Below the pieces are notes generated by a model. That model was not told the DNA's origin and made no database searches. It saw only the letters and a list, made by a program, of their open reading frames with translations. From Siphonodentalium dalli (lineage: Eukaryota; Mollusca; Scaphopoda; Gadilida; Siphonodentaliidae): 64,000 bases of DNA. Position numbers and translations under genes: made by a program. Shown one piece after another: positions 1 to 29,471 of this stretch. The stretch lies in contig CP136063.1 of assembly GCA_032622095.1 (NCBI GenBank), positions 41,266,106 to 41,330,105 on the forward strand, read 5' to 3'. The stretch's first letter is position 1; every line of letters begins with the position of its first letter.

Positions 1-268
1 CTGCGGATCTTACATTTTGTTTGCAAACTTATTTCATTATTTTAATTTTCAAACGTCTTAAAAAGGATTAAAAATCAGATATATGCTGCGGAATTTAATT
101 AGAAACAATTAAAACAATAATTTTATGAAACTTGAAAAACTTTTTTATTATTGTGATACAGTTGTGATCAAAATAATTATGGTTACAATTATGGCCGATA
201 ATATCGGCCCTGGCAATTTATCAACCGGACATTTGGGCCGATAATATCGGCCCCTGGCAATCAAAGAG
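1..268. mobile_element. Terminus of a piggyBac-type (TTAA) element
   Basis: Homology to the other two copies of the duplicated unit begins exactly at a TTAA (269-272). Read from the minus strand, the sequence next to this TTAA starts CTCTTTGATTGCCAG, which resembles piggyBac-superfamily ends (CCCTTTG-like, TTAA target). The 17-base palindrome GGCCGATAATATCGGCC occurs twice, at 193-209 and 236-252, each followed by CTGGCAAT, giving subterminal structure. No transposase is visible; the rest of the element lies left of the window. The superfamily call rests on the target site and end sequence only. Confidence 0.5.
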
Positions 269-316
269 TTAATCTGGACGACATACATCAGAGCCTTATT
301 CAGATGACACAGTAAA

Positions 317-565
317 CTAGAAGTCATCATTTATAAACAGACAGTCACCACTCTTAGACGAGGATAGGGGACGTTTTCCGGCATCCACTTGGTCGGATGA
401 CTCGGGTAGCTGGGCCTCCAAGGGCCCTTCTACCTCTGCCCCGTCCACATACACTACACTCTGGATATCAGACGGGCTTGAGTAAAGGGCAGAGGCCTGT
501 GCAGGCTCCGCCCTAGGGGCTTTTTCCTGGGCCCAAGCCCGTTTTTCCTCCTCCGAAATAGACAT
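317..565 (-). CDS. Small acidic ORF of unknown function, copy 1
   Basis: An 82-residue ORF starts at an ATG at 565. It is rich in Glu, Ala, Ser and Pro (start MSISEEEKRAWAQEK) and has no recognisable domain, signal peptide or membrane segment. Just upstream on the minus strand is a pyrimidine-rich tract ending TTTCCAG, so the ORF could be the first coding part of an exon with a 3' splice site. It lies downstream of the repeat-rich ORF at 950-1909 on the same strand and might be part of the same transcript. The same ORF is intact in copy 2 and broken in copy 3. Function unknown. Confidence 0.4.
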   Translation of the reverse strand: MSISEEEKRAWAQEKAPRAEPAQASALYSSPSDIQSVVYVDGAEVEGPLEAQLPESSDQVDAGKRPLSSSKSGDCLFINDDF

Positions 566-949
566 GTTTGTCAGTTAGTCTAGTTAGTCTTACTCTGGAA
601 AGCAAAAGGCATAATTTAGGTGCTGATCAGACAATAAGGGCAAAGATAATTATCAATCTTTTCTGCCTCCTGTTTAAACTTTATGCACCCCCCCCCCATG
701 AAAGCAGTCTGTACACTTGCCACATTCTATCATGAAACCCTCCTCGGGTTTATGCGAGATGGAAAATAAAGGAACAGGCAATCCCCATAGCTGAGAAAGA
801 GCCCTTTGTCTTTCAATCCACGGTGGCAATACCTAATCTTTACAATGGTTTTGTGATACCCATAATATATGAGCAGGTGGATGCACGCACCCCGGTCCCA
901 CATATAGAGGCACCCCTGTCTTGAACTTCGATAGTGGAAACTTCACTAG

Positions 950-1909
950 TTATGTCCAGAGCAGTCTACCTTGCGGCAGTTTACAAAATGTCAGGATAGG
1001 AGTAACAAAAATATAGAATATACGTCTAGACTCCCTTGGATTAACTGATCTATCAGCAACTTCCTCCTTTACAGTAACACTAAGGAGTTTGAACCTCACA
1101 GTATCAAAAAGAACATTTAAACTTGGTTTCAGATTTTTTACCTTGGAAATAAGCTCATTCAAAACATGGCCCCGATGAAGCCTGAATTTGATGTCCCTGC
1201 ATTCACGAACCTCATCGTCGAATAACGCAGATTGCAGGAGTTCAGATAACGGATCATTTACAGTTGGTGTAATCTCTTCTGCAGATGAAAAGCTGTGGTG
1301 GTCAAGATCCATGCTGATATCCAATTCAGCACTGCAGTCAAGATCATCTGTTTTGTCATCGTGTTGCTTGCAGTCAAGATCATCTGTTTTGTCATCGTGT
1401 TGCTTGCAGTCAAGATCATCTGTTTTGTCATCGTGTTGCTTGCAGTCAAGATCATCTGTTTTGTCATCGTGTTGCTTGCAGTCAAGATCATCTGTTTTGT
1501 CATCGTGTTGCTTGCAGTCAAGATCATCTGTTTTGTCATCGTGTTGCTTGCAGTCAAGATCATCTGTTTTGTCATCGTGTTGCTTGCAGTCAGGATCATC
1601 TGTTTTGTCATCAGGTTGCTTGCTGTCAAGATCCTCTGTTTTGTCATCAGGTTGCTTGCTGTCAAGATCCTCTGTTTTGTCATCAGGTTGCTTGCTATCA
1701 AGATCCTCTGTTTTGTCATCGGGTTGCTTGCTGTCAAGATCCTCCTCATCGTGTTGCTCTTCAACTGCATTTTGACTGCTTAAGTAGAATGTCAGAATTC
1801 CAATTTTATACAGCTGGTAACAATCTGCTACTGTAACGTCATTTGGAACTCTCTGTTCCTTAGGCCACACAAAGTTAATTTCCTGTTTCTCAAAGGATTT
1901 TTTTTTCAA
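950..1909 (-). pseudogene. Acidic 12-residue-repeat gene, copy 1, truncated by a stop
   Basis: The 319-residue ORF begins MKKKSFEKQEINFVWPKEQR and carries about 11 tandem copies of an acidic 12-residue unit of the form DLDxKQxDDKTx. A C-terminal part follows (FRLHRGHVLNELISKV then FDTVRFKLL). That part resembles the start of HECT-like regions in invertebrate E3-ligase-like proteins; this is a weak family memory, not proof. A stop (TGG ACA TAA) ends it at 950, where copy 2 reads TGG ACA TCA and continues 43 residues. The repeat gives long open frames in other phases, which are not separate genes. Probably one exon of a larger or decayed gene. Confidence 0.45.
1333..1743. repeat. 36 bp coding minisatellite, copy 1
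   Basis: About 11 head-to-tail 36 bp units encode the 12-residue acidic repeat on the minus strand. The left half is nearly homogeneous (TCATCTGTTTTGTCATCGTG type); the right half is a TCCTCTGTTTTGTCATCAGG variant. This suggests local amplification of one variant. Confidence 0.95.
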
Positions 1910-2185
1910 ACCCAGCAGGCAGGCAGGTTTGTATATAATGTTTTTATGACTAAAATTTTCCAGCAGGCAGGTTTTTATATCTACTTTTTATGACAAAATG
2001 TTACCGGCAGGCAGGTTTTTACATATGTAATACCATTGTTTTATTAAAAACTTTAATTTTGAACATTAAACAACCTGTAGTTTTCACATATGCATATAAC
2101 AATTATAAGAAACAGAAGAATTAAACAAATGAGATTAGAGACGATCATATACAAGTTAAACTTTGTATGGATAAATCTTTATATT
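1910..2185. repeat. GCAGGCAGG-containing short repeats, copy 1
   Basis: The motif CAGGCAGGTTT recurs three times between about 1916 and 2020, each followed by a TATATxTxxTTTTTATGAC-like stretch, giving a degenerate local tandem repeat of about 55-60 bp. No gene is visible in the remaining AT-rich sequence. Copy 2 has the same at about 23580-23850. Confidence 0.6.
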
Positions 2186-2189
2186 TTAA

Positions 2190-2660
2190 AGGTACTCAAT
2201 CCGATCAGAGGGTCCCCATCTCAACAGATTCCAACAACAACAATCCGATCAGAGGGTCATATATTACTATTTCTTTGGCTTTGGGGGTAAAAAATATTTG
2301 ATTCGAGTCGAGCAACCCATCAAACAAAGCTCAAGAGTTATCAGATATTGATTTTTGAAATTTTTTATTTTCTCGAGATGAGTACTAATAATTGCCCTTA
2401 ACTTTGTAATCTGCTCGAGATGTGTACACAAAAACACTATTCAAACAGACAAGGATGGATAACTCTAAAATCAAGTGGTAATAATAACGCAATTTTGACT
2501 GTGTTCTGGGCCAGAAAGAATAGAAATAACGAAACTTCAAATATCGATATCTGATCACCCTGAGCGTTGATTGGTAGGTTCCTCGACTCAAATAAATTAT
2601 TTTTTACCCCCAAAGCCAAAGAAATAGTAATATAGGACCCTCTGATCGGATTGAGTACCT
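2190..2660. mobile_element. TTAA-flanked MITE, copy 1
   Basis: A 471 bp element is bounded by TTAA at 2186-2189 and 2661-2664. Its inverted ends begin AGGTACTCAATCCGATCAG, and a further inverted stretch (ATTACTATTTCTTTGGCTTT near 2267, mirrored near 2610) pairs inside. CCGATCAGAGGGTC is also duplicated directly near the left end. No coding capacity. The TTAA target fits a piggyBac- or Kolobok-type non-autonomous element; the ends do not decide which. Confidence 0.8.
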
Positions 2661-3017
2661 TTAATCACTACAGAAAAACATTTCACAATCATTTTCGAGT
2701 GCAATGTGTGAATTATGTGACCATATCAGATTTTGCATGGTTACGTTTGGTTACTTTAATAAAATGTTTATTTGGATATTTATTATTTTATATATTATGA
2801 AATATGAAATTTAATGTAGTATCACATGTTTCCACTTGTATTTGATACTCCCAAAAAAGAAAATAGGCAAACATATTTATATGGAACTCAGACTCAGAAA
2901 TAAGTACATTGTACTTTCAAATGCCAAGATTTAGTTTAATACAATGCCAAATGCCAAGATTGTTCATGTAAAACCATGAACTTTGCAAAGAGGAGAAATC
3001 CTGACAAAACATACTAT

Positions 3018-6000
3018 CTATCCCTTTTTACCTTTCTTGCCACCACCGAGATTCCCCTTACTATTAGCCGCCCTCTTTCTCCTCGGAATAATAGGAAATT
3101 TGACAAGACACCCATTACACTGTGGGAAAACCCCTTCTGTTTTTACAAGATCATCACCTGAACCACATTTGACGCAGATATCCACGAAACACTTTGAACT
3201 GTAATAAGCAGTTTCTATATCATCTTGGCATTTGAATGGTCTAATGAATAGCTTCCTGGGTATACTGCTAACTTGAGGAGCTTTATCTGATATAAGATCA
3301 TGGATATCTGCTCCACAACTGTATTCATAGAACTGTATGAATTTATTTAGAGTGCCTTTCTCCGATATTATAAATTGCGATTTGCTGTGCATGACACGAG
3401 GTTTCATGCATTCCGTGCAAGTTGCTGTTTCCCTTACGTTGCTAGCAGTATGGCCTGACAAGGGAAATGGTGGCTTTACACTAGACATACTTGGAGTACT
3501 GGTCTTAAGAAATGATGGCCTTTCACTTTCAGATGTTTGCACCTTACCATACAATTGTTGAAAGGTTTTATAATGTTCCCCAGAGTCATCTGCCATTGGA
3601 TCGGGAAAGTTGTGTAAGGTAGAAAAGATGTGCTCTGGAAGACGAGGTGGTGCACACATCTGACAAGTAGATTTGCCACATTTCTTAACACAAAAATAAT
3701 ACTTTGTAGACGCACAACAATGCTCCATGAACATTTTAAGTGACATTTTGCCCTTGAGCTGACTTGCGGATCGATCGGTAGCTGATATTGCTGTATCTAA
3801 TTCCTGTACACATTTCCACAATTCTTCAATATCATTATCACTAGCGGCACAAACATTTGTATGGTTTATCTTTGAGGGATAACCTCTTAATCAGACTCTC
3901 AATCAATGTCTTAACATCTTTGAGGCTTGCACCCACTGCTTCCTGGAGGCCTTCCACTTTACTAGCAGCGTTACGTACAGCTTTCATGGTATTACATGAA
4001 CGCAGTACCTTCTCAAAATCACTAATGGTCTCTGCCCTCATGAGACCAACACAATTGAGCGCAATATTAATGGAGGACATTATCCTTTCGGGGGGATTCC
4101 TCCAGGAAGCATTGGGTGCGGTTCTCAGGGCCACAAGATAATCAAGGTCATGTTTCTTAAACAAACAAATCAAAGAGGCCTTGACACTTAAAAAATTAGT
4201 TCGGTGATCAGGGCCACCGTCTGTGTGCAACAGCAAGATCGGTTTAATGGAATCATCTGGAACGGTGTCATAAAGAATCGCTGAAAGTTCAGTCATGTGG
4301 CGCATGGGACTCGATGCCTCGAATATGTGGTCTTTTATGCCAACATGTATCTGCCCACGGTAAAACGAACCATCGATATTCTCTGGGATGTCGATGTTCA
4401 TTATAACGCTTGGAATTACGCTCATCTTTGCGAAATCATGATCAGACACAGCAAACATCTTGTTTTCCGCTACTACGACCTGATGTCCCCTTTCGACGGC
4501 TGCCAATGGATTTCCTGGTTCCCCAACTTTGCAAAAATGCTTGTCGTCCATACATATAAAGTTCACATCAGACCGATACATGATCGCCATTTCACGCTGG
4601 TAACGGAAGAATGCAGCACAATAATGGTCATCAATGTGCTTCTTGCGGAAACATCTGGACTGGACCATGAACTTCAGTCCAAGTTTACCTGTATATTGAC
4701 TTGATGCAACCGCCCACGGATTCTTTGGGGCAAATTGAAAGCGAAGCCATTGCTCACTGGGGATAGGAGTACCATCAGGGCACAGCTTGGACACCTCTCT
4801 GTGAAGATCGGGCACTGACATGGCCGTAGCCATGTATGTTAACTTATAGTGTCTTCTTTCTTGGCATGCCTCGCCTACAACATTTGATATGTATTGCTGA
4901 CACTTTTCGAAAAATATAGAATATTTCGATGGTTGTCCTTCATTGTGTGACCTCAAGTCCGTTACAATATCCGGGTCTTCAAGCGAGAATGCTCGATTAA
5001 CTCGGGAATCAACATCTTTACAGCTTTTGTCAGAATTCACTGAATTGTCGCCGGATAGACGTTTATATATCCCTCTCAGGTAACCACTGTTGACATTTAT
5101 CCGTAGTCGCCCACACATTCTGATAAATGTAGTTCTCATCGCCCTTGTATGATAGATAGGTATTGTTGATTTTAACTTGGTTATGATATGTGTGTTCGTT
5201 GAGAGCTGCTCACTGTCGTCGGAACATGTATCAGGCTTCCACAGGTAGTGTTATGTCCCTAGATTATTCCCGTAGCTGTAGGAATACATGAATGCAGACA
5301 CTGGAAACATTTCCCTGATATATCGCAAATAATGTTGCCTCTCCTGATTATTTTCGGGGGTGAATTCATCAAGACATATGGGTTCACCAACAGACGCATT
5401 CTGCAGTGCATCTGCAAGAGTCTTATACCTGACCACAAATGTTGGTTTAATTACGGACTTAGGTGTGATTTGGCACAAATCCTCAGCATCGTTTTGATCA
5501 CGTACCGGCTGTGTGGCTTCATGGTTCTCCCCAACAACCAACCTTTGTTTGTGTAGATAGGCCGCATACTTTTGAAGTGAGTCCGTCAGCGTAATCACAA
5601 TACTTTTGACTTCAGCCCAACACTGTCTTTGTATGAACGGTTGCTCTAGCATTGCTGCCAACTGACCACTATACTCAAGCAACTTTGATTGCTCCAACAC
5701 CGGAAGCTTATGCTTCGATCGTCTTGGATCATGCAGACCGAAGAGCCCGTTTAATTATTCTGGTACTTGGCACGACCGATCACAGAGTTTTCCACGGTGT
5801 GGATCTATGTACCATACGACGTTACAAATTAATTGTACAAAATTCTTGCCAATGACTTCAACACTTTGTGATGAAAAGCCGAGATTCCTTGAGGCGAGAA
5901 ATGCAATAAACTTTGAAGCTAATTCGTCCCGGTTATTGCGTTTGTCCAACTTGATTTTCGGCAACACTCTTCTTTCCTCCATTAGAATAGAGAATGCAGA

Positions 6001-6237
6001 ATGTTCATTTGTTGTCAATATTGGTATATCTGGAGCATCATCCAGCAAATTAGGAGCAGGTTTAATATTTATCCTGAAGTAGCGTCCAAAGATATCAGCC
6101 ACCTGATATCCGACCAGTTCCTGCGACACCTGTTTCCTGTAGACATATACACTGTCGGTTACCCGTTTAGGTTCGTACATTCCAAGATGGCGGCCCAAGT
6201 AAACTAGATAAACGGTAATTGTATATATTGTCTCCAA
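3018..6237 (-). pseudogene. DDE-like, zinc-ribbon transposase-like gene (unclassified family), copy 1
   Basis: This is a single-exon gene of about 1,060 codons read from 6237 to 3018. The N-terminal third is a helical region of unknown type. The middle holds acidic motifs spaced like a DDE nuclease: FICMDDKHFCKVGEPG near 4530, LLLHTDGGPDHRTNF near 4200 and NPPERIMSSINIAL near 4080. The C-terminal part has Cys pairs (CGKSTCQMC, CTEC, CVKCG, CNGC) resembling zinc ribbons and ends in a Lys-rich tail. I recall similar uncharacterised proteins in cnidarians, sponges and molluscs but no named family. Copy 1 is broken by two point nonsense changes (near 5754 and near 5251) and a 2 bp loss near 3853; the stretch between 5139 and 5250 is in frame here. 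Confidence 0.6.
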
Positions 6238-6834
6238 GCATCAATTAACGACATCTTTCGGTGATACACCTTTAAACACTTGTGTAGGAATGTGTATGCC
6301 CAAGATGCGTTTCGCACGACAGGCATGTGAATTGTTGTATTTGGCGTGTCAAGTCATAAGTTTTCAAAATTTTATCGAGGTTGCGAAATGTTCGCTTTTT
6401 CTTATTTTTTTTTGCCCTGGGCTCATGGATCCGCAAATTTATGTTTTGTTGTCGGTAGATTAGGTTACCACACATCTTCGGAATGCAAAACCGACGATAT
6501 TTTTATTGTCTAACTCCGAAAAACGACCTTTGAAAATTTCAAAATTTACATGTTCAGATTCGCAATATTCCCGATAAAATTTCTAAAACTTCTGACTACT
6601 TTACACGCCAAATACAACAATTCACATGCATGTCGTACGAAATGCATGCTACGTATGTGTTGGGCATACACATTCCTACATAAGTGTTTAAAGGTGTATC
6701 GCCGAAAGATGTCGTTAATTGATGCTTGGAGACAATATACACAATTACCGTTTATCTTGTTTACTTGGCGCCGCCATCTTGGAATGTACGAACCTAAACG
6801 GGTAACCGACAGTGTATAATAGTCTACAGGAAAA
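6133..6834. repeat. Foldback (about 250 bp arms) over the 5' end of the DDE-like gene, copy 1
   Basis: The sequence from about 6133 to 6385 is repeated in inverted orientation from about 6560 to 6834. Both arms include the segment encoding GMYEPKRVTDSVYV and the untranslated bases upstream of it (for example TCAATTAACGACATCTTTCG). The arms are imperfect, and 170-180 bp of unrelated sequence separates them. A transcript reading through would form a long hairpin containing the gene's own 5' coding part. Confidence 0.85.
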
Positions 6835-6983
6835 AATAACAACTTCGAGCTGGTAATACGCGAAAACTACTGTATAGTAGTATATATGTCCGAAAAAAAA
6901 GTCTAATCTTTTCAAACAATGAATCACATCAGAAATTCAGAATTTATTCAACCACTGAAAGTAAATATATATATATACGTATA

Positions 6984-7107
6984 TACATGATAATTCTTAT
7001 GTTATTATAATTATGGCACATTTATCTGAGCTTCGAAATATATATATATGCTTAATGAAGCTCAGATAAATGTGCCATAATTATAATAACATAAGAATTA
7101 TCATGTA
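6984..7107. repeat. Near-perfect palindrome, copy 1
   Basis: Arms of about 50 bp starting TACATGATAATTCTTATGTT mirror each other around a short AT-rich loop (GAAATATATATATATGCTTA). It is flanked by degenerate direct repeats of about 40 bp (TGAATCACATCAGAA at about 6919 and TGAATCACGTCAGAA at about 7128), as if the palindrome were inserted in, or generated with, a local duplication. There is no coding content. Confidence 0.9.
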
Positions 7108-7483
7108 CATATGTCGAACTCCTCAAATGAATCACGTCAGAATTTTTTCAACCACGGAAAGTATGTAAGCAACCATATATATCAATAGATTGTTGACAAA
7201 TTCGAGATCAACTTGAAATTAAAGTGTAAGTATTCGCGTGTTACCAGTTTGCAGTCTTTTTTGTATAGAGGGGACGGTTTTCCTGGAACGCACAGTGCCA
7301 TATATATGATTTTGAAAATAAATTATCACCTATATTGTAATCGAAACAATGCGCGGAAGATACTACCGTGCATGCGAATAAAACAATAAAAATCTTACAA
7401 AATCGCGACTAAAGACCTACTACATGTAATATATTTTATTCATATATTCAACAGTAATAATTTTTTGTCATATTAAAACTTAC

Positions 7484-7590
7484 CCGTCATCAGAAAGCTG
7501 GCGTTTAACTGCTATTGTCTGAAGACCACGCTGCTTTAAAATGACGATCTTGTGACGAATGGAGAGAGGGACGCGAACACCACCAGCCAT
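7484..7590 (-). CDS. First exon of a helix-turn-helix protein, copy 1
   Basis: An ATG at 7590 opens a 107 bp exon that ends at a consensus donor (G followed by GTAAGT at 7478-7483). The encoded start, MAGGVRVPLSIRHKIVILKQ, and the following residues RGLQTIAVKRQLSDD have the spacing of the N-terminal HTH of Tc1/mariner-type transposases (R, IV, L, G, IA). No matching DDE exon was found downstream, so this is an orphan exon or a host HTH fragment. The family call is inference. Confidence 0.4.
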
Positions 7591-7594
7591 AGTA

Positions 7595-8960
7595 TGAAAC
7601 TATTTTTGAGTCAGTAGCAGAGCACTTTAAGGTGAACACGAACTTGTAACAATTAATTGGAGACCAATGGAATTCAGAGCGCATACTTGTTAAGCGATTC
7701 AGTGGAAACCCGAAAAGACTAGGTGTGATAGACGAATTCGTTTTATGATTCCAATTCACCAGACTCTTCTGTCAGCAGCAGACAATGGCTGTATTGCGTA
7801 ATTGTTTTATGATCCTGTAAAGATCCGCCTGCCTGGGCTTGACACAATAGACCAATTAGTAAGCTTGAGCTTTGCTATGCCGATGGTCAACGGCTTCGTG
7901 GATTAGATGAGTGGCCTTTGACGATTTAACGAAAACACTTTTCAATTTTATTGTAATAATTTGTAACAACACTCAAGGTTTCATTAAAGGCACGTGAGGC
8001 CTTAGTTGTCGAAAATATTCATATTTGTTCCAATCACCGTAAACAGAAAAACATTAAAACGCATACAGTTTCGTTCATATATACCATGACCATCTCGTAA
8101 ACATCATGTTATCATAAAGACCTACTATATTTTACCTAAGCAAGAGCCTGATAGTGTAACAGAAGACAGCACAATGCTACTGGCTAATCACACAAATGGC
8201 ATAGACGCTCTTTATTACTTCCATATCAGGAATTCACCAACAAAGAACGCTCTTTATGTTTACCAGTATAATATAAACAAACACCAGAAAAGTAACTTTT
8301 GATACTTTCGTTTACATAACAATGGTAAAACATATGACAATAACATACTGTTTATGCGATATTTCTTATTTGTATACGGACAAAGTCTGTCTGCATTTTG
8401 ATGTTCTTTCTGTTTGTGGCGGTTTTTTGACGGGTGGAAATATGTTCACAGGATACCCACCGCCAAGGCCAACCGTACCTTTAATCACTTCAAAATCTCA
8501 CGACGATAAAACCACATATACGCGATTACATAAAAACTTTATTTACTTCTAGTGGGTCAAGGAATGGGCCTCTCGGACCATTCCAAAATCCCAGGGTTAG
8601 CCCCCCCCCCCAAACACGCCCTGTAATAGTGGGTGAAAAACACACACAGGACTAATATATATACATACAGGCCCACATGTGAGAATTAAGCTATATATAA
8701 TGCCCAAAAAATGCAACCCATCATATACATGTGCATGTAGTGTAATATAATTCATATGGTAAACTTAAAGAGCGTTTATTTCACGTATTTGCACAAAATT
8801 TAAAGCAAGTATTTGTAGGTAAACCAAAATTTTGTGTATTGATCAACCGCTTATACCTCAGACCAAATTACGTTTGTGGGTGATAAAAGGAATGAGTCTC
8901 CTCTTCAGTTACAAGAAGATCAAATTCCTATAATGAATACATATATACAGATGTTTTGTG
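7595..8960. other. Gene-poor stretch, copy 1
   Basis: Mostly AT-rich sequence with no convincing gene. A 76-codon ORF at 8322-8552 (plus strand) is conserved in copy 2 at 30439-30669 with one difference, but has no domain or codon signature that supports it. A run of C occurs near 8600. In copy 2 (29579-31059) the left part has about 140 extra bases at 29646-29785 without inverted repeats or target duplication. Confidence 0.5.
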
Positions 8961-9493
8961 ATATATCATGCTTTTCGATCAACCAACCAACCACATGTAA
9001 GTAAAGTAGTATATACATGTACAAACATACCATCTATGATATAATGACTCTCAGACAGAATATTTTTTTGAAATACAGATGCATAACTAGATTCAGCACT
9101 GACGTCCGGTAATATATTCCAGTTATATATTACTAGCACAGGTACCCAGGCAAAATTAAAATTGAAACAGTTTTGGAAGAAACGAATCCCGGACATTTCC
9201 CTACCGGATATTTCCCCACCCGCCATTGAAATGGCAAAGCGGACATTTCCCCACTTACTCAATATCAAAGCGGACATTTCCCCACCGGACATTTACCCAC
9301 CTTTGACTGTTTAATACTATGTGTGTGGTTTATTGACTCATACTATGTGTATGTGTTAAAATCAGATTTATTTCAGTGAACGAAATTATATACATATACA
9401 CAGCAATAACAATAAATAGTAACGATACACTTAACAACAACACTTAATCTTTCTTGACTGGCCGAATGGCCAACAATGTCGAGGAAATCGACC

Positions 9494-9640
9494 ATACTCT
9501 ACTTTTCGCTGTCGAAGTCCACACACAGCTTATGAAGATTGTTCTGAAGTGCTGACATCTCTCGTCGAACTTTCTTCGATGGCCGCTCACCCAGTCTCAA
9601 TCTCTCGATGTCAGTCAGTGCAGCAGTCTGGTCCTTTATA
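9494..9640 (-). pseudogene. C-terminal tail of the MULE-like protein, copy 1
   Basis: The minus strand reads TAALTDIERLRLGERPSKKV and ends LHKLCVDFDSEK and a stop. The same tail is at about 34175-34318 in copy 2. In copy 1 it directly abuts sequence that in copy 2 lies beyond the hAT insertion and the upstream MULE segment, so about 1.26 kb is missing here. Confidence 0.45.
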
Positions 9641-9679
9641 TCTGTTCTTCAGAAAATATATCAAATTAAATGCTCTTTA

Positions 9680-11155
9680 GGCCAGACCAATTTAATTACT
9701 TGTTTTACGAACACCGCCGATAGCTTTTTCCGCCAAAACCGAATAAAAATAATACACTTTTCTTCCCAGAGAAAAAATTACGTTTTCCGGATTTTAGTGA
9801 TTTCGTTCCGCCTACGAGTTGTGTATTCCGGATTATAACGCTCCGTATTCCGGCCTTCCGAGTTATGCGTTCCGGTTCCGGTTCCGTGACCTTTTGTTTA
9901 CATCTGTCAGCGTGCATAACTTCCGTTGTTTAGTGAAACATGTGCGAAATAGAATGGAGACTGCAGATTACTTCAGCTTAAAAATACTAACAGACACGCA
10001 ACGGACGCCGAAGCAAAAGCTAGTTCAATTGAGTCTTTCTGATGTAGTATCCGTGACATTTAGTGAGGTGGGCGATGACTTTAAAGTGGATAAAATCACG
10101 GTTAAAAACGGTAGTGACTCAACTGATGGCCACGAAGTTCAGCCAAACACCCCCCTCAATATTGTTTCCCGATTTGGCGCATCATGCATCATTCTCCACG
10201 TCTCAAAGCTGTCAGTTGGTGATGGTGTGTCAGTTTCTAAGAAGACTTTGGATGCATTCGATGTAATGATGTCGGCACGAAGTGACTCTTGTTACCCAGA
10301 TAAAGTCGAATTCAAAATAAACAGAAGAGACATTGGTTCTTGGTATTGCCAAGTTCTTGTTTAATATTTGTGTTTATGATTAGTATTAAAGGCTATCATG
10401 ATTAATGATCTTGGCATCCAATAAACTGGCTATTGTCTTCCCCTGGTTTGTGACTTAGAAAATGCTTGGGTTCATTGGTAAATTTTAATAACATGTCGTA
10501 GCCTCTTTCTCGACTCCGTATTTGGAACAAAAGACAATCTGTAATTGTATCTTCTTCTCAGATCAATTGTCGTCAATTGATCTGAATTTTCGTCACTTGT
10601 AGAACACATGGATATAGATCTGGAAATTGCATGTCGAACCTAAAACTATATATACGAGGATCGATGAGATATTGCCGATTCAGATATGTCAATTAATACG
10701 AGCACATATTCTTCTATGGGTCTGATATGCAAGTGGTATCTATCAGTGTTTTTACCGTATCCAAACTCATTATCCACCATATAATGTACCCACCAACATG
10801 CATGTATTGTACAATATGGTAAACATCTTTCAGTAGCAAGTTACTAGCAACTTTCAGAACACCCACAGAACAAAACATATTAATTACCAATTAACTCAGG
10901 TCTTCCCAAGTCACAGTACCACAAGCTAGAAGACATGGATAATTACATGTATATCTGTTTTGTTTTGAGTTATTTCTTATTGAATAAAGTTTGTTTACCT
11001 TATTCACTACTTATTACATTATTTAGAAGCTATGGGATGTATATCGGTCATTTCTGATTTTTTTTTAGGAATATTATTTATTTTTTTATTCCCTCCTGCA
11101 TCTACATATTTTTTTCCCAGTCGTTCGTAAAACAAGTAATTAAATTGGTCTGGCC
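9680..11155. mobile_element. 1.48 kb TTA-flanked element with its own ORF, copy 1 only
   Basis: The ends are 33 bp perfect inverted repeats starting GGCCAGACCAATTTAATTAC, flanked by TTA at 9677-9679 and 11156-11158. Copy 2 has the empty site (GCTCTTTATGGAAATTTG near 35621). The TTA target fits PIF/Harbinger (or Zator) elements, but no transposase or Myb-like protein is present. The only convincing ORF is 9954-10364. The ends are perfect and the site is empty in copy 2, which indicates a recent insertion. Confidence 0.85.
9954..10364 (+). CDS. 136-residue protein of unknown function carried by the TTA element
   Basis: I chose the Met of METADYFSLKILTDTQRTPK as the start because the frame upstream lies in low-complexity (TTCCG)-rich sequence. 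The protein is soluble, rich in alternating hydrophobic and polar residues (VVSVTFSEVGDDFKVDKITV), with no signal peptide or membrane segment, and looks beta-rich. AATAAA-like signals follow (about 10419 and 10982). It is not a transposase I know; it could be captured host sequence or an accessory protein. The frame is uninterrupted, unusual in this window. Confidence 0.5.
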   Translation: METADYFSLKILTDTQRTPKQKLVQLSLSDVVSVTFSEVGDDFKVDKITVKNGSDSTDGHEVQPNTPLNIVSRFGASCIILHVSKLSVGDGVSVSKKTLDAFDVMMSARSDSCYPDKVEFKINRRDIGSWYCQVLV

Positions 11156-11204
11156 TTATGGAAATTTGCACACATATCATTGGATAATTAACCAAGAACG
11201 CTTT

Positions 11205-11387
11205 TTATATCTGTTCTTCAGAAAATGAATTAACATCCTGGAAATTGAGACTCGTCACCAGTTGTGACACACCCCTTGCATGTGAGAGTTTTTCGCTGCG
11301 AACACTCCCATCTGATTGACGATTTGTTGACTTTCTTTTTGGTATACGCATGGCCTTCGAAACATAATTGTCACAACATTGTTTCAA
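11205..11387 (-). pseudogene. FLYWCH-type exon, copy 1, frameshifted by a 44 bp deletion
   Basis: Compared with 35675-35896, the segment between two CATAATT repeats, starting TGCCACCACC, is deleted together with one repeat. This removes the first part of the finger and shifts the frame, so only the FQDVNSFSEEQI tail reads as in copy 2. A second small indel (loss of TTAA near 11250) adds to the damage. Confidence 0.6.
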
Positions 11388-11632
11388 CTGCGTTGATGTT
11401 CCAAACTATCGTAAAAACACTCTTTCGTGTTTGTCAAAAAACACTTTCATGTCTGTCAAAACATTACATCGGCTGAGTTGACATCGCTTGAGATGGCCTC
11501 ACTGATCAGTCAAAACATTCTTTGATGGCTGCATTTTATTAGCAGGGTGGGGAAATGTCCGTATACCGGAAGAAACAATATATATTGGGACATCGTGCAG
11601 AGATTCAAAACAAGTTTATTCTGTTCATTGAT

Positions 11633-12017
11633 ATGTGTTTATTTAAATCAATGATTTTTTTTTTTTAAATCATTGATTTAAATCGAATTTGTTCAAATGA
11701 AGCACAGGTCTACCTTTCCAGATATCATAACATTGGAACCCACGTGGAACCAAGTGTATGCATAAAGCACATGGACGCTATTTCTGTGTTGCCATGATAT
11801 ATGTGTGTTTCATTGGTATGCAGAATATAATAAAAAATAATACAATCACAAAACTATGATTAATCCAGTCTAGATATAATAAGTAACACCTTTCAGAACA
11901 TTCATTTATCAGCGAAATTGCACAATTACATATTTTCGTAACAGTTAGAAAAAAAGCAAATAAATCGATTTTTTTTTATTTATTTTTTAAAAAAAATCAA
12001 AAAAATCAACAACCCTG
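11633..12017. mobile_element. Possible hAT-type MITE remnant, copy 1
   Basis: A hairpin of AAATCAATGATTT (about 11647-11685) is followed about 270 bp later by AAATCGATTT and a T/A-rich run. The end ATCAACAACCCTG at 12005-12017 reads CAGGGTTGTTGAT from the other strand, a hAT-like terminus. The matching left terminus is not found, so boundaries are uncertain. Copy 2 has the same at about 36172-36552. Confidence 0.35.
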
Positions 12018-12478
12018 GTTTATTACATAAACATTATAGAATATTACATATATTATGACAATCAAGATATTCAAATATGACATATATAATAATAACAAAT
12101 TTCATATGAGGAACACGTGAGCGCATTATTATGTATTTGGTAAGTTTCCATTCGGGTGATGATTTCAGGTACTGTGTGCGGGACTTTGTAGTCAGGGGTG
12201 TATATGGCCTTTTACAAAATAGGGGTGGGTTCATGGAATATCAATGGTATAGCCTCAAGTGGACTTGCCAAAAATATCCTGCAGGTTCGGGACCAAACAC
12301 ATATATTACTCGTCGATCGGCATCATTAAAATACGCCATGCCCATTATTTTCGTGGCCAAAAAGACATGTTTCGTGCCGATGGGTCATCATGCAGAGACA
12401 GGGAGTCAGACAAACAATGCCTTTTATGTATAAAAAGATGATATAAATAGCACGGACTTTTATAGTGCAGGCACTTAC

Positions 12479-12619
12479 AATCAGATCAACGGGTTCTGAC
12501 ACTCGCACTGGAGTGGAAGGCGGGCATTGCACCATCGACAGTTGAGGAGCCCCAACCGACCTTAAGTCAACCGGCTGGCATTGCACCCTCTTCCTAGCGT
12601 TGAGCCCGTGGTACAAGTC
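12479..12619 (-). CDS. 141 bp exon-like segment, copy 1
   Basis: Between a 3' splice site (GAATTCAG before 12619) and a consensus donor (GTAAGT, 12473-12478) lies an exactly 47-codon open segment starting DLYHGLNARKRVQCQPVDLR, with VQC, a Pro-rich stretch and EPVDLI. It is preserved base for base, apart from a few changes, in copy 2. No domain is recognised. An internal exon of an unknown gene, supported only by signals and an open frame. Confidence 0.3.
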
Positions 12620-12859
12620 CTGAATTCAACAGACTAAGGCAATTGGAGTCTATGCAAGCACTCATTAGGACATTATGCAACTACTCTTCACAACACATAT
12701 CAATATATGCAAATTCACACGGATTAATCAAGGTAAGTCTCCTCGTCGGTCCTGCTTCAGAATGGGGTGGGGCTTTGCTTCTTGCTTTGGTGGCACCCAC
12801 CTCACTGTGCATGAGCTCATATCAAGATCACAACTTTACAAACGCTCTTCAGCGGAATT

Positions 12860-13045
12860 AAGGCAATCAACAGTGGGTTGTAGGAGAGGACTGACGGTCC
12901 CTTTCAAATCTTCCCGGGTATCACCACAAACTCCAAACTCGCAGTACAGGCACTCAAACGGCCTTGTATAATGGTAAAACAAGTTTACTTGCTTAGGGAC
13001 AAATATGAGTAGGCCTACATTTATGGTTGGAACTAAATTTGTTCA
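12860..13045 (-). other. Possible exon with a CxxC pair, copy 1
   Basis: A minus-strand frame of about 60 residues contains YTRPFECLYCEFGVCGDTRE. This looks like the first half of a C2H2-type finger (TRPFECxxC), with no clear His pair, and it stops within the following 40 codons. It could belong with the 141 bp exon-like segment downstream. Support is weak. Copy 2 has the same at about 37730-37930. Confidence 0.2.
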
Positions 13046-13049
13046 GTAT

Positions 13050-13640
13050 ATCTGTAGCACGCACCGACCAAGCCTTGTTTAAAATCTAGGGCATTCTGCG
13101 TATACCAAGAGATATATAGCTATATTTAAGTCTACAGTGGAAATAAGAATATAACTATAGTGAAAAATACATATTGTTTATTGACCACAAATATATATAA
13201 TAAATAGCACATACTAACATAATAAGATTTATAACGATTAACAAAACGGAAATGCACAACAAATTTATCCGATATTTATATAAGTAAATACGTTCGTAAT
13301 ACAAATGTACCTGTAAGAATACGCCCAAACGGTTTTACTAAAATAATAAAATAATTGCCTTAAATAATTAATTGAGATGGCGCTCTGGCAAAATTCAATT
13401 GCAACATTACATAAGTCTGACCTCATAATGAATCTTTATTTAACATTCACGATGGACTGAGGTTTATTCTTTTAATAAATATAAACAGATCTCGAGCTCA
13501 AAACGCCTACTTTATTATTACATTGATTATTATTTATATTTACCGTAAGCATACCAGACAATTATCAGGAGCTCGAAATGAGCAAGTGTGTAGCTGAATC
13601 GCCACGTACATTTATCTAATTACAAAGCAACGGACACATT
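13050..13640. other. AT-rich stretch without recognised features, copy 1
   Basis: I see no gene, inverted repeat or splice-bounded frame here. The matching stretch in copy 2 (37935-38558) has 41 more bases near 38463-38503. Position 13600 is 3' of the BEN-like ORF, so part may be its untranslated region. Confidence 0.5.
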
Positions 13641-14929: not shown

Positions 14930-17210
14930 AGCTGAAATGCTAACCATATTTAAAAAATTACATTCATAACCTGTTGTAATGTGGAATCTGCTGCTGTGGC
15001 TTCTTCGAATTCCTTCCATTTTGTTTTCAGAAATTGGTAGAGATGATCTTATAGAATCAACACACATAGTCAATTCCTCGGACAACTCAATATCAGAAAT
15101 AACGTGAGGTAGGTAGGCTCGCGATAGTGTGTCTGCTATAACAAGTTTCCCTGGCGTGTAAGTGTAGGTAGGTAGGTTCGCGATAGTGTGTCTGCTATAA
15201 CAAGTTTCCCTGGCGTGTACGTGAGGTAGGTAGGCTCGCGATAGTGTGTCTGCTATAACAAGTTTCCCTGGCGTGTACTGGAGGTAGGTAGGCTCACGAT
15301 AGTGTGTCTGCTATAACAAGTTTCCCTGGCGTGTACTGGAGGTAGGTAGGCTCACGATAGTGTGTCTGCTATAACAAGTTTCCCTGGCGTGTACTGGTAC
15401 GTGAGGTAGGTAGGTTCGCGATAGTGTGTCTGCTATAACAAGTTTCCCTGGCGTGTACTGGTACGTGAGGTAGGTAGGTTCGCGATAGTGTGTCTGCTAT
15501 AACAAGTTTCCCTGGCGTGTACTGGTACGTGAGGTAGGTAGGCTCACGATAGTGTGTCTGCTATAACAAGTTTCCCTGGCGTGTACTGGAGGTAGGTAGG
15601 CTCACGATAGTGTGTCTGCTATAACAAGTTTCCCTGGCGTGTACTGGTACGTGAGGTAGGTAGGTTCACGATAGTGTGTCTGCTATAACAAGTTTCCCTG
15701 GCGTGTACTGGTACGTGAGGTAGGTAGGCTCGCGATAGTGTGTCTGCTATAACAAGTTTCCCTGGCGTGTACGTGAGGTAGGTAGGCTCACGATAGTGTG
15801 TCTGCTATAACAAGTTTCCCTGGCGTGTACTGGTACGTGAGGTAGGTAGGCTCGCGATAGTGTGTCTGCTATAACAAGTTTCCCTGGCGTGAGGTAGGTA
15901 GGCTCGCGATAGTGTGTCTGCTATAACAAGTTTCCCTGGCGTGTACGTGAGGTAGGTAGGCTCACGATAGTGTGTCTGCTATAACAAGTTTCCCTGGCGT
16001 GTACTGGAGGTAGGTAGGCTCGCGATAGTGTGTCTGCTATAACAAGTTTCCCTGGCGTGTACTGGAGGTAGGTAGGCTCACGATAGTGTGTCTGCTATAA
16101 CAAGTTTCCCGGGCGTGTACTGGAAATTCAGGTCATACTTATGTAATTTCATCATCATTCTTTGGATATGTGGTGTCATGTCGTTAAGATTCTTCCCATG
16201 TATGGCAACTATGGGTTTACTGTCCGTTTCGATTGTCACTGGTTTCCTATATATATATTGGTGGAACTTAATACAACCATGCAGAATGCCAAGCATTTCC
16301 TTCTCGAACACTGCATATTGTGTTTCAGCATCTGTCAATCTGCGTGATGCATATGCGACTGGTTGCCATGAGTCATTATGTTTCTGAAACAACACACACC
16401 CGGTTCCATTTCGTGAGGAGTCCGTTGACACCTTTGTTTCCAGCTTAGGATCGAAATATTTAACGACAGGTTCTTTCATAAGTACTGTCTGCAAGTACTT
16501 AAATTCACGGACATGTTCATAAGTCCATTGCCAGTCATTTTTATCCTGTAACAATGATCTCAACGACGAAGTATTTGCTGACATGTTCGGAATAAACACT
16601 ATTCCTAGAAATCTCAGTAAATCCGTTTTGGTACGGCATTTCTGATATCGCACAGACTTTAAATGGATCAGGCAATGAACCAGCTTCCGTAAGTTTATCT
16701 CCTGGGAAATTCAGAGTCTACTCCGAACTGACATTTTTTCAGGTTCAATTTAAGGTTTGCCTTGCGAAACTTCTCAAGAACAATTTTCAATCGCCTATTA
16801 TGTTCTTCTTGGGGTAGTTGCCCACAGAATTACATCATCGTGCACTGACGTCATACCTTCTGTGTCATCTAGGATCTGAGTAATGGCCTTATGCAGTACC
16901 TCCGACCCGCTTTTCACCCCGTATGGCAATCTTAAGAATTTGTGTCTTAGGGAATAACTATTAAACATTTGCCCAACAAAGCGTAACCCATGCAGGATGG
17001 TGTAGACAACTGTGCACGTGGTCCGCGCTACTGAATGTCTTGTTCAGGCACCGAGTGTAGGATTCCTCGCAATCTGTTAATCATCGGTGTCAGTGATCGC
17101 TCGTCCTGTGTAAAAAGCGGACTGGCCAAGGTATGTGGCTATTTTGTGACTCATTAAGTCAAGGTTGGGGAGGGGAACGAGGCTGCTGGACGGCCGTACT
17201 GGCGGAAACC
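14930..17210 (-). pseudogene. Ty3/Gypsy pol remnant interrupted by a minisatellite, copy 1
   Basis: The minus strand encodes a decayed Gypsy polyprotein. RT pieces come first (FLRLPYGVKSG near 16910 and VHDDVILWA near 16840, in place of the usual YxDD), with several frameshifts and stops. RNase H follows in a clean ORF at 16078-16653 (TKVSTDSSRNGTGCVLFQKH, ETDSKPIVAIHG). The RNase H to integrase linker TPGKLVIADTLSRAYLP is where the minisatellite begins. Beyond the array the linker continues (VISDIELSEELTMCVDSIRS, then WKEFEEATAADSTLQQV near 14990) and is cut off at about 14930. No LTR or integrase core is seen. Confidence 0.8.
15104..16128. repeat. Minisatellite derived from the Gypsy RNase H/integrase linker, copy 1
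   Basis: By hand count about 17 units share a 50 bp core (TAGGTAGGCTCGCGATAGTG, then TGTCTGCTATAACAAGTTTCCCTGGCGTG) followed by variable spacers (TACTGG, TACTGGTACGTGAGG, TAAGTG). On the minus strand the core encodes TPGKLVIADTLSRAYLP in the first unit, so the array arose from coding sequence. Units are 57-66 bp, often not a multiple of three, so the frame is lost along the array. Confidence 0.95.
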
Positions 17211-18689: not shown

Positions 18690-20549
18690 CAATTCCCAAT
18701 CACAACACTTTGTTTTCTCTTGTCCCCTTTTTGCGACGTTTGGGATTTAGCACTCCCGGAAACGTCACGCGGAAGTTGTCAGCTGCTTCGGTTGTGTTGG
18801 ATTTTGCAGAGATGGTAGATTGCTGCAGTAATATCGCCGTGTTTGCCGGTCCATATTGCGTCAGAGTAGGGTTAGTGTTTAAACCGTGCCTGACACCGCG
18901 CTGTTGACAAAAGTGATTCTCTACTATATCACTGTTGAAGTTTGCCGGAACAATACTGTTGTCTCCGTTCAGGACAAGTCTGAACAGAGCAATGGTTCTT
19001 TTCATGGTCGAACATATGCCTTGTCTGGTTTCGTCTGAGAACAAATTTTTATTTGCACTATAAATTTCATTTTCTTTGACACTGTTCTCCCACGATTCGA
19101 TGAAGTCAATTACTGTGTCAAGTTCGGAAATTTGTTCATCATTTGCTGATGTGATTGGTCTAGTGTCGGTGAAGAAAATTATTAGTTTGGACGTAGCATC
19201 CAAATTGTTGAGGACAGTTTTTCCGGTTTTTCCTGGTTTTTCAAGAGATTCTGAGTAGCCTTTCATGAGATACAGCATATTGGAATCTAACACATCAATG
19301 GCCAGTTTATTTCTCATTTTTGTATACAGATGTTAATGATATGTGTTCCTGAGTGAGATGGTTGTGTATTTGAAGTCCTTTGATGAAATTGAAACGGAAA
19401 GCAGATTCCTACTGATCCCAGACAACATCTTTGCCATGTAGAATCAAATATTTGCCATTACATGATTTGTTCTTCTGCCTGCTATGTTCGATATTATTCC
19501 TAATCTTTTTGATTGTGTGCATAGGATCTTTTATGACTGCTAATGGCTTATTTGACTTGAAGGCATTGCGTGTGATAAAATTGCAGTCTCTAAGCTCTCC
19601 TGGAAATAACAAATGCATGCACGATCGATTTATCGACGCGCCATCAAACATTATATAATTTACATTAAATTGGTAGTCGTCACAAGCGCCGATGATGTCC
19701 AAAATTATGTTTACTAATTGGAACGCTGTTGCAGTTGAGGTACCATAATGCGCCACAGGCCACCTGAACCCTTCATTCCCCTTAAAGATGACCTGTAGCC
19801 ATTACTACCTTCTGGCCGTTTTGGATATAATTCACCATGTTGTTAATGGGAGCAACGTCTGTCGCCCCGACGATCCTATACTGCAGATTGTCTTGGATGG
19901 CCATCTCATCTAACACCAAACCCCCACACACGCCAGATTTGGATATGTTTTTCTTTTTCGCTTCCGATGCCATCCATTTATTATTGTCATGGTTGATGCC
20001 TGGCATCTGCTTGATGGAATTTTTATAATACGACAGGAGACGTTGGGACGGGAGGATGAAGTATCCGCTATCTTGGATCTCCCGATAAGCGTTTGGAGAC
20101 CGTTGGTATATTGCCAAACAAATGCTTATTAATCTTGGATTCCAACGTCTCCCTCGTGGATCGTTTGTGTTGGTGTTTCTTAGTTGATCCCTAATGAACA
20201 TTTTTAACCCCTCCGGTATTTGTTGTTCTAAAATTTTATTCGCAATGACTCGGAGGTCGGTGTCGTCCTCTTCATTGAGTGGTAAGGTATATTTTGAACG
20301 CTGTGGATAAATGAATAATACAATAATTTAAATTGACTGTAGAACAAACGTGTATTAAAGATAATCTGTCGATTCCTGAACTGCACTATGAAAAGGACAC
20401 AATGCATGCACTGATAACTTCACCATTCATTCTAAAAAAAACAGGTAGAAATAAACTTGATACGATGCGGTGCAATACTCCGGGAGTGCTAAATCCTAAA
20501 CGTCGCAAAAAGGGGACAAGAGAAAACAAAGTGTTGTGATTGGGAATTG
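18690..20549 (-). mobile_element. P-element-like transposon, copy 1
   Basis: An imperfect inverted repeat of about 70 bp starting CAATTCCCAATCACAACACT bounds the element at 18690 and 20549. It encloses a P-type transposase in several frames. On the left, this repeat contains the last codons of the transposase (FPGVLNPKRRKKGTRENKVL), so the same peptide is mirrored at the other end. No clear 8 bp target duplication is seen, so the true ends may lie further out. Confidence 0.6.
18700..20301 (-). pseudogene. P-element-type transposase, copy 1
   Basis: Read from about 20301, where TCCACAG looks like a 3' splice site, the first part (to 19782) has the P-transposase motif SGVCGGLVLDEMAIQDNLQY. The second (19409-19756) has MFDGASINR and KPLAVIKDPMHTIKKIRNNI, the conserved D-P-H-x-x-K-x-x-R-N block. 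The third (18700-19317) has the C-terminal helices and NSDIVENHFCQQRGVRHGLN, like the family's SDxVEN/FFxxxRxxG block. No N-terminal THAP finger is found. A stop (GATCAGTAG near 19404), a frameshift near 19317 and another near 19790 break the frame. The first two are shared with copy 2, so it was dead before the duplication. Confidence 0.8.
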
Positions 20550-23857: not shown

Positions 23858-24327
23858 AGGTACTCAATCCGATCAGAGGGTCCCCATCTCAACAGATTCC
23901 AACAACAACAATCCGATCAGAGGGTCCTATATTACTATTTCTTTGGCTTTGGGGGTAAAAAATATTTGATTCGAGTCGAGCAACCCATCAAACAAAGCTC
24001 AGAGTTATTAGATATTGATTTTTGAAATTTTTTATTTTCTCGAGATGAGTACTAATAATTGCCCTTAACTTTGTAATCTGCTCGAGATGTGTACACAAAA
24101 ACACTATTCAAACAGACAAGGATGGATAACTCTAAAATCAAGTGGTAATAATAACGCAATTTTGACTGTGTTCTGGGCCAGAAAGAATAGAAATAACGAA
24201 ACTTCAAATATCGATATCTGATCACCCTGAGCTTTGATTGGTAGGTTCCTCGACTCGAATAAATTATTTTTTACCCCCAAAGCCAAAGAAATAGTAATAT
24301 AGGACCCTCTGATCGGATTGAGTACCT
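23858..24327. mobile_element. TTAA-flanked MITE, copy 2
   Basis: This 470 bp element occupies the position orthologous to 2190-2660, with TTAA at 23854-23857 and 24328-24331. It was present before the duplication. Just right of it copy 2 lacks about 23 bases that copy 1 has, between short ATCA repeats. Confidence 0.8.
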
Positions 24328-27600: not shown

Positions 27601-27881
27601 CACACTCTTCTTTCCTCCATTAGAATAGAGAATGCAGAATGTTCATTTGTTGTCAATATTGGTATATCTGGAGCATCATCCAGCAAATTAGGAGCAGGTT
27701 TAATATTTATCCTGAAGTAGCGTCCAAAGATATCAGCCACCTGATATCCGACCAGTTCCTGCGACACCTGTTTCCTGTAGACATATACACTGTCGGTTAC
27801 CCGTTTAGGTTCGTACATTCCAAGATGGCGGCCAAGTAAACTAGATAAACGGTAATTGTATATATTGTCTCCAAGCATCAA
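24661..27881 (-). pseudogene. DDE-like, zinc-ribbon transposase-like gene (unclassified family), copy 2
   Basis: The counterpart of 3018-6237, with different lesions. The first 368 residues (27881-26775) are open where copy 1 has two stops. A 1 bp loss near 26805, a 1 bp gain near 25860 (CGTCTTGTGTG against CGTCTGTGTG) and a 4 bp loss near 25545 then shift the frame. The junction into the C-terminal zinc-ribbon part (near 25490) is in frame here and broken in copy 1. The acidic motifs MDDKH, DGGPDH and PPERIMS remain. The 5' end overlaps the left arm of the foldback at 27771-28474, so the true start may be the Met of LGMYEPKRVTD or upstream. Confidence 0.6.
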
Positions 27882-28474
27882 TTAACGACATCTTTCGGTG
27901 ATACACCTTTAAACACTTGTGTAGGAATGTGTATGCCCAACATGCGTTTCGCACGACAGGCATGTGAATTGTTGTATTTGGCGTGTCAAGTCGTCATAAG
28001 TTTTCGAAATTTTATCGAGGTTGGGAAATGTTCGCTTTTTCTTATTTTGTTTTGCCCTGGGCTCATGGATCCGCAAATTTATGTTTTGTTGTGGGTAGAT
28101 TAGGTTACCACACATCTTCGGAATGCAAAACCGACGATATTTTTATTGTCTAACTCCGAAAAACGACCTTTGAAAATTTCAAAATTTACATGTTCAGATT
28201 CGCAATATTCCCGATAAAATTTCTAAAACTTCTGACTACTTTACAGGCCAAATACAACAATTCACATGCATGTCGTACGAAATGCATGCTACGTATGTGT
28301 TGGGCATACACATCCCTACATAAGTGTTTAAAGGTGTATCGCCGAAAGATGTCGTTAATTGATGCTTGGAGACAATATACACAATTACCGTTTATCTTGT
28401 TTACTTGGCGCCGCCATCTTGGAATGTACGAACCTAAACGGGTAACCGACAGTGTATATGTCTACAGGAAAAAA
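27771..28474. repeat. Foldback over the 5' end of the DDE-like gene, copy 2
   Basis: Same structure as 6133-6834, with the same arm lengths and a similar spacer, so it formed before the tandem duplication. The right arm again preserves the mirrored 5' coding segment up to YVYRK. Confidence 0.85.
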
Positions 28475-28623
28475 TAACAACTTCGAGCTGGTAATACGCG
28501 AAAACTACTGTATAGTAGTATATATGTTCGAAAAAAAAGTCTAATCTTTTCAAACAATGAATCACATCAGAAATTCAGAATTTATTCAACCACGGAAAGT
28601 ATATATATATATATATACGTATA

Positions 28624-29288: not shown

Positions 29289-29471
29289 TATATATGATTT
29301 TGAAAATAAATTATCACCTATATTGTAATCGAAACAATGCGCGGAAGATACTACCGTGCATGCGAATAAAACAATAAAAATCTTACAAAATCGCGACTAA
29401 AGACCTACTACATGTAATATATTTTATTCATATATTCAACAGTAATAATTTTTTGTCATATTAAAACTTAC

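Follow-up and report, generated by a model that had tools for sequence, protein, structure and literature searches.

Introduction

Characterised DDE transposases hold two metal ions at their catalytic triad, cut the ends of an element and join them to a target. Here, we examine in this context a transposase-like gene of the scaphopod mollusc Siphonodentalium dalli, present as two broken copies in a stretch of 64,000 nucleotides (assembly GCA_032622095.1, contig CP136063.1, positions 41,266,106 to 41,330,105 of the forward strand; hereafter the window). The closest described systems are bacterial ISAzo13 and eukaryotic Zator. In the available parts of one report, ISAzo13 is given as the prokaryotic counterpart of the superfamily Zator (PMC10045372; the pairing also appears in the available parts of PMC5718144), Zator is described as resembling ISAzo13, and target duplications of 3 base pairs (bp) are attributed to both (PMC10045372). 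Judged by its sequence, the gene studied here is distantly related to this known bacterial transposase group, and the protein family libraries that we searched returned no match to it. The explanation we favour, with a probability of roughly 0.7, is that the window carries a pair of dead transposase gene copies from a DNA transposon on the ISAzo13/Zator side of the IS630-Tc1-mariner group, most likely as a strongly diverged Zator or as a sister lineage that still lacks a name.

A preliminary description of the window had placed a single-exon gene at 3018-6237, with three acidic motifs, a Cys-rich C-terminus and a basic tail, and had proposed a transposase of an undescribed superfamily. Its observation appears largely right, and its DDE reading is now supported by a statistical test on sequence profiles.

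Results

The predicted catalytic domain

The acidic motifs MDDKH (4551-4537), DGGPDH (4221-4204) and PPERIM (4095-4078) occur in the order first reported and within one open minus-strand frame. Aligned with ISAzo13-type and IS630 transposases, the residues D235, D344 and E388 of these motifs fall, in the order D, D, E, on the triad columns of both groups; the alignment included the protein of the gene (hereafter the window protein), and its columns are therefore fitted to that protein. The features of this region, numbered by the residues of a 469-amino-acid (aa) open reading frame (ORF), are as follows.

3994-4650, minus strand: DDE catalytic domain, residues 201-419 of the 469-aa ORF, predicted from hmmsearch and from hhalign alignment to ISAzo13 over residues 212-412
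4546-4548, minus strand: predicted first catalytic Asp, D235, the first D of MDDKH; all six IS630 rows have Asp in this column, as do 18 of the 19 ISAzo13 rows, the other having a gap
4435-4443, minus strand: Asp-His-Asp motif, D270, H271 and D272, common with ISAzo13, from the alignment columns
4219-4221, minus strand: predicted second catalytic Asp, D344 in DGGPDH; the column is Asp in every row, both of ISAzo13 (19 of 19) and of IS630 (6 of 6)
4087-4089, minus strand: predicted catalytic Glu, E388 in PPERIM; the column has Glu throughout IS630 (6 of 6 rows) and in all ISAzo13 rows but one, which has a gap (18 of 19)

At H271, all ISAzo13 rows but one, which has a gap, carry His (18 of 19), as do 2 of 6 IS630 rows; at D272, 17 of 19 ISAzo13 rows carry Asp, the remaining two having a Ser and a gap, and none of the six IS630 rows does. 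Between the second Asp and the Glu lie 43 residues in the window protein, against 42 in all 18 ISAzo13 sequences in which this distance was measurable. A seven-row alignment of the window protein with six ISAzo13 proteins contains 14 invariant columns, at a domain identity of 19-25%.

Profile relation to ISAzo13

The ISAzo13-type set was assembled from plasmid records. An ISAzo13-like query returned 164 records, and 12 of the 40 listed bear an ISAzo13 label at the matched place; 12 ISAzo13-type sequences were taken from these 40, and a second search, with one divergent member as the query (115 records, 40 listed), supplied 7 more. Two of the resulting 19 are incomplete within the domain, and 7 are annotated as ISAzo13. 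All four ISAzo13-type loci that were scanned match PF07592, the Pfam model of the group.

Run with hmmsearch without filters, a profile of the 19 domains gave the 469-aa ORF 15.6 bits, with an expectation value (E) of 3.8e-7 for one sequence. The ORF thereby ranked at the top of 20,002 sequences (20,000 shuffles, its reverse and itself; 8,589 scored), the best shuffle reaching 8.8 bits. A control set of 218 sequences comprised ORFs from a stretch of E. coli, ORFs of the window, four E. coli insertion sequence (IS) proteins, six IS630 proteins and the protein itself. Scores above 3.3 bits were limited in this set to the six IS630 transposases and pieces of the transposase-like gene. The IS630 enzymes ranged from 4.5 to 24.2 bits, two of them above the window protein, while the IS5 transposase reached 0.9 bits and the IS30, IS1 and YagA transposases fell outside the best 14 of the 218. 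In a local hhalign comparison with the 19-sequence profile (P 0.0059), residues 212-412 were matched to 179 columns, the D, D and E of the triad lining up, and none of 400 shuffles attained the score. With a profile of the six IS630 sequences, the window protein received -0.9 bits and rank 1,157 of the 10,389 sequences scored (mostly shuffles), which is not above the shuffles. As far as sequence profiles go, the DDE part of the proposed undescribed superfamily is supported, since the ORF scores well over the best shuffle, whereas its novelty is not established, the ISAzo13 kin already having a named eukaryotic counterpart in Zator.

In a tree of 152 columns, built from the 19 ISAzo13-type sequences, the six IS630 sequences and the window domain and containing no Zator sequence, the window domain falls outside both groups, separated from ISAzo13 with support 90 and from IS630 with support 99, and its branch is long (2.77). 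This bears on whether the protein is a divergent member of Zator itself, which would be a narrower form of the explanation we favour. Its profile and motif relation to ISAzo13 would suit such a membership, as would the resemblance of Zator to ISAzo13 and their common 3-bp duplications, as given in the available parts of the literature (PMC10045372; PMC5718144 for the pairing). The long separate branch outside the ISAzo13 clade, in a tree without Zator sequences, and the failure of PF07592 to match speak against it, although neither point is decisive, and we place this possibility at somewhat under even odds.

Weighing the transposase reading

Several results weigh against the reading as dead transposase copies on the ISAzo13/Zator side. 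The profile score is modest, and the comparison with ISAzo13 was post hoc, picked after the likeness had been spotted by eye. Nine cyanobacterial-type sequences alone gave 4.0 bits, with 25 of 10,000 shuffles as high, and the other ten alone gave 5.5 bits, with 3 of 10,000 shuffles as high. The full-profile score fell to 4.4 bits with the triad masked, to 11.6 with the Asp-His-Asp motif masked and to 2.5 with both masked; the relation therefore depends mainly on the catalytic motifs and their surroundings, as is expected for very distant DDE enzymes. An earlier local hhalign run with 12 sequences had given P 0.039. The score of the later run was also attained by one E. coli ORF out of 64, in an alignment of 60 columns, although none equalled the summed alignment probability. 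Pfam, which includes the ISAzo13 model PF07592, returned no match up to E 10, whether queried with the 230-aa domain by itself or with three pieces that together span the gene. Two single-sequence AlphaFold models were unusable (mean predicted local distance difference test, pLDDT, 34.7 and 40.6), and a Foldseek search with the second of them found no match at E 0.001, its best (E 0.13) being to unrelated-looking chains and taken as meaningless. Confirmed relatives were absent from viral_contigs, genome_contigs and phages, collections of mostly prokaryotic and viral DNA in which absence says little, and no copy of the gene was seen besides the duplicated pair. Lastly, the scan of the flanks described below yielded no convincing transposon ends, with hits mostly at the rate of random flanks.

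Searches of other libraries gave the following. NCBIfam showed no match at E up to 1 for four pieces of the gene, and PHROGs gave nothing significant, with matches only at E 0.12 or worse. Against the sequences of the Protein Data Bank (PDB), the 469-aa ORF alone had no match, while a joint profile, searched at E up to 10, had as its sole and weak match the Sleeping Beauty transposase 5cr4 (E 0.85). An ISAzo13-type query was likewise unmatched in phages. A propensity calculation placed a strand ahead of each Asp and of the Glu region, the helix expected at the Glu not being seen, and was given no weight.

Two alternatives can be judged from these data. If the motifs had arisen by chance in a protein of another fold and function, both the failure of structure prediction and a modest profile score that drops with half of the sequences would be natural; yet the ORF came first against 20,000 shuffles, and its three catalytic columns stay in register across about 180 columns, so that we hold a chance likeness to be very unlikely. 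A known superfamily with a C/DxxH signature (hAT, P, MuDR, Kolobok or Dada) would share the DDE order, and zinc-finger motifs are known in Dada and Kolobok transposases from the available parts of two reports (PMC3706591, PMC9587614). Such an assignment is nevertheless improbable in the extreme, given that residues 344-388, from the second Asp to the Glu, contain no C/DxxH and that Pfam gave no match.

Two decayed copies of the gene

The gene itself and its second copy are laid out as follows.

3018-6180, minus strand: copy A, a broken transposase-like gene, ATG at 6180-6178 and stop at 3020-3018, from ORFs, translations and comparison with copy B
5254-6180, minus strand: N-terminal part, about 309 aa, without a recognised domain in library scans of the translation
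5251-5253, minus strand: TAA in copy A where copy B has TAC, from comparison of the two
3849-3851, minus strand: 2-bp deletion at 3850 in copy A relative to copy B, by which the frame is lost ahead of the C-terminal part, from the alignment of the copies
3018-3850, minus strand: Cys-rich C-terminal part and basic tail, with CxxC pairs at 3665-3654, 3419-3408, 3176-3165 and 3119-3108 mapped from copy B
24661-27818, minus strand: copy B, a broken gene, from a BLAST search of the window against itself, ORFs and alignment with copy A including flanks

According to the ORF listing and three-frame translation, copy A runs on the minus strand from the ATG at 6180 to a terminal codon at 3018, about 1,054 codons. 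The start at 6237 in the preliminary description lies inside a palindrome, and the ATG at 6180 was chosen instead, by eye. A further TAA in copy A, at 5757-5755, stands where copy B has GAA, and the stretch 3018-6237 consists of four ORFs, three in a common frame and one in another, split by the two TAA codons and the 2-bp deletion. The gene is therefore not intact; its description as a single exon still agrees with the data insofar as no intron is needed to account for the frame, because each stretch is open in copy A or copy B. Also borne out are the Cys-rich C-terminus and the basic tail: the C-terminal piece of copy B has four CxxC pairs, a number reached in 1.3% of 2,000 shuffles of that piece, and the tail RRKRAANSKGNLGGGKKGKKG runs up to the stop at 3018.

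Copy B had no place in the preliminary description. The gene is present twice because a stretch of 21-27 kilobases (kb) is tandemly duplicated: in the self-comparison by BLAST, 269-21255 (unit A) is repeated as 21256-48598 (unit B), followed by a third fragment at 48599-49110, with insertions between the matching blocks. These blocks are about 93-99% identical between units A and B; the third unit, which breaks off at 49110, is more diverged in the 510 bp with which it begins (92%). The joints between units adjoin short repeats (cttaatctg...tggacgacacatacatcag).

An alignment of the two copies with their flanks has 46 substitutions over 5,367 columns (99.1% identity). The lesions of copy B are different from those of copy A: it lacks 1 bp at 26804 and 4 bp at 25540 and has an additional 1 bp at 25860. 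Among the 25 substitutions in the coding region, 6 are synonymous, 17 replace a residue and 2 are nonsense, and there are frame-breaking insertions and deletions besides. About a quarter of random coding changes are silent; the observed split is close to the expectation for unconstrained change, and the differences between the copies look neutral. From the separate lesions and these neutral-looking differences, we conclude that an intact gene would have been duplicated along with the surrounding 21-27 kb, both copies decaying later without selection. Within the window both copies are dead and probably without function, and some of the single-base insertions and deletions could stem from assembly errors.

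Flanks, ends and mobility

That the gene belonged to a mobile element is something we infer solely from the kind of protein. The flanks were scanned for inverted ends next to duplications of 2, 3, 4 and 8 bp, with five random flanks as a control. For ends of 14 bases with at most two mismatches, there were 13 hits at 2 bp (random flanks 1, 35, 3, 3 and 1), 2 hits at 3 bp (0, 0, 2, 0 and 2) and 3 hits at 4 bp (0, 0, 0, 1 and 0), the last slightly over the controls. For ends of 18 bases with at most four mismatches, the numbers were 8 at 2 bp (3, 5, 1, 1 and 4), 1 at 3 bp (2, 0, 0, 1 and 1) and 1 at 4 bp (0, 0, 2, 1 and 9). Neither the 14-base nor the 18-base scan of the flanks found inverted ends next to an 8-bp duplication. 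Candidate ends at 2078-6869, with CTG on either side and 12 of 14 end bases matching, are unconvincing on their own, two of the five random flanks having as many 3-bp hits; the best 4-bp pair, 2027 with 8331 (ATAT), was also judged unconvincing. Searching the near flanks with 10-base seeds revealed only a few short words in common. In a BLAST comparison of 1-3017 with 6187-13500, the best direct pair was 1854-1888 with 9671-9705 (80%, E 0.003) and the best inverted pair, which is AT-rich, was 2040-2097 with 13204-13149 (71%, E 0.003). Copies A and B provide no empty site because the duplication gave both of them common flanks.

These data bear on whether the gene is instead a member of a host family that was domesticated from a transposase and no longer moves. 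The flank scan without ends would agree with this, and so would the origin of both copies by segmental duplication rather than transposition; the neutral decay of both, unlike what a maintained host gene would show, argues the other way, and we regard domestication as unlikely.

A palindrome covers the 5' end of the gene.

6133-6833, no strand assigned: palindrome over the 5' end of the gene, arms 6133-6377 and 6572-6833, 89% identical with one reversed; in both copies

Found again at 27771-28471, it takes in the first codons of the gene and CCAAGATGGCGGC, presumably a YY1-like sequence, and two opposed gene starts face outward from its centre. Readings of it as a foldback insertion or as a transposon end were weighed and rejected: its outer ends have no target duplication by eye, and the matches of an arm in the window are limited to the partner arm and copy B. 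A hairpin, tgataattcttatg...cataagaattatca, lies upstream of the gene in both copies (6977-7114 and 28617-28754) and is probably a small foldback element. On the 3' side of the gene and on the same strand, a minus-strand ORF (950-1909 and 21820-23577) contains an in-frame repeat of 36 bp (DLDSKQ.DDKTE), which occurs about 11 times in unit A and about 30 times in unit B. Its unit B version has no Pfam match, and it is possibly a second gene of the element.

Other elements in the window

A palindromic element at 2190-2660, again present at about 23858-24327, starts with AGGTACTC, ends with GAGTACCT and has TTAA on both sides (2186-2189 and 2661-2664). Kolobok elements are described, in the available parts of PMC9587614, as having a TTAA duplication and 5'-RR..YY-3' ends, and the sequence of this element fits both the duplication and the terminal signature. 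Another element, with ends ATACCGCTAT..ATAGCGGTAT, is found in unit B at about 28946-29289 and missing from the matching site of unit A (7301/7302); its insertion, apparently at TA, therefore probably postdates the duplication. A relative in inverted orientation lies at about 37265-37612.

Each unit also has a minus-strand ORF (19782-20201 and 47050-47538), perhaps a remnant of P-element/THAP9 type; the second matches the TNP-like RNase H N-terminal domain PF21787 weakly, at E 0.025, below the cut-off. At 16078-16653, on the minus strand, a reverse-transcriptase-associated RNase H (PF17919, E 3.5e-29; PF17917, E 4e-28) is probably what remains of a long terminal repeat (LTR) retrotransposon. 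Minus-strand ORFs at 51699-54909 resemble the endonuclease and reverse transcriptase of a long interspersed nuclear element (LINE), by eye only.

Discussion

If the two copies do derive from a transposase, its protein of about 1,054 aa would have consisted of a long N-terminal part, a DDE domain with a putative RNase H-like fold, a C-terminal part with paired Cys that probably bind zinc, and a basic tail. The N- and C-terminal parts may have bound the ends of the element or assembled the complex. By analogy with characterised enzymes, D235, D344 and E388 with two metal ions would excise the element and join it to a new target, leaving a short duplication there, perhaps of 3 bp if the element behaved like Zator and ISAzo13.

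The protein may alternatively represent an unnamed animal DNA-transposon superfamily, 'DD43E', which, next to Tc1-mariner, pogo and Zator, would be a further eukaryotic lineage branching deeply within the IS630-Tc1-mariner/ISAzo13 group; we offer this tentatively, as it falls well short of even odds. Were it true, a transposase of about 1,050 aa with zinc ribbons would have been missed by automatic annotation, as no library model detects the family. Tc1/mariner transposases have roughly 350 aa. In open-licence PubMed Central literature, DD43E does not occur, and no description of the transposase-like protein was recognised; names in Repbase or subscription journals could be missed in this way. 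DGGPDH appears there in a single paper, on glycerol metabolism, unrelated as far as its title and abstract tell. Many similar proteins without a name occur in the proteomes of corals and molluscs, a lead rather than a test against a domesticated host gene. If such genes are widespread, they would swell the tallies of 'uncharacterised protein' and 'unknown repeat' in animal genomes. A profile of them would make the whole class recognisable to annotators and would add a eukaryotic branch to a group known from the bacterial IS630 and ISAzo13, from Tc1-mariner and from Zator.

Comparison with known systems

The tandem units invite comparison with the arrays of KolobokP, whose units have in common a direct repeat some 450 or 660 bp long, according to the available parts of the report (PMC9587614, Kojima and Bao 2022). 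Similarly, about 510 bp of sequence recurs where the units of the window meet. In contrast, its unit measures 21-27 kb and its transposase-like protein lacks C/DxxH, so a KolobokP-like array is unsupported on grounds of unit size and signature; the 510-bp stretch was not searched for inverted ends.

IS630 and Tc1-mariner belong with the window protein to a wider group, in which the triad aligns and the six IS630 proteins score with the ISAzo13 profile. The window protein differs from IS630, whose six rows do not conserve the His-Asp pair, and it scores negatively with the IS630 profile. With Zator, compared here through the available literature and without any Zator sequence, it has in common a eukaryotic host and a relation to ISAzo13/TP36, which for the window protein is distant.

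Compared with ISAzo13 (PF07592, DDE_Tnp_ISAZ013), the window protein is extended by about 309 aa N-terminal to the 469-aa ORF, has additional residues within the domain and bears a Cys-rich C-terminus; domain identity is low (19-25%), PF07592 is silent on both the 469-aa and the 230-aa pieces, and the protein stands outside the ISAzo13 clade. Common to both are D-x-K-x4-(I/L/V)-G at the first Asp, a His-Asp pair downstream of it, D-x-G at the second Asp, P-x-x-S-x-x-N-x-x-E at the Glu and a near-equal spacing between the last two catalytic residues (43 in the window protein, 42 in ISAzo13).

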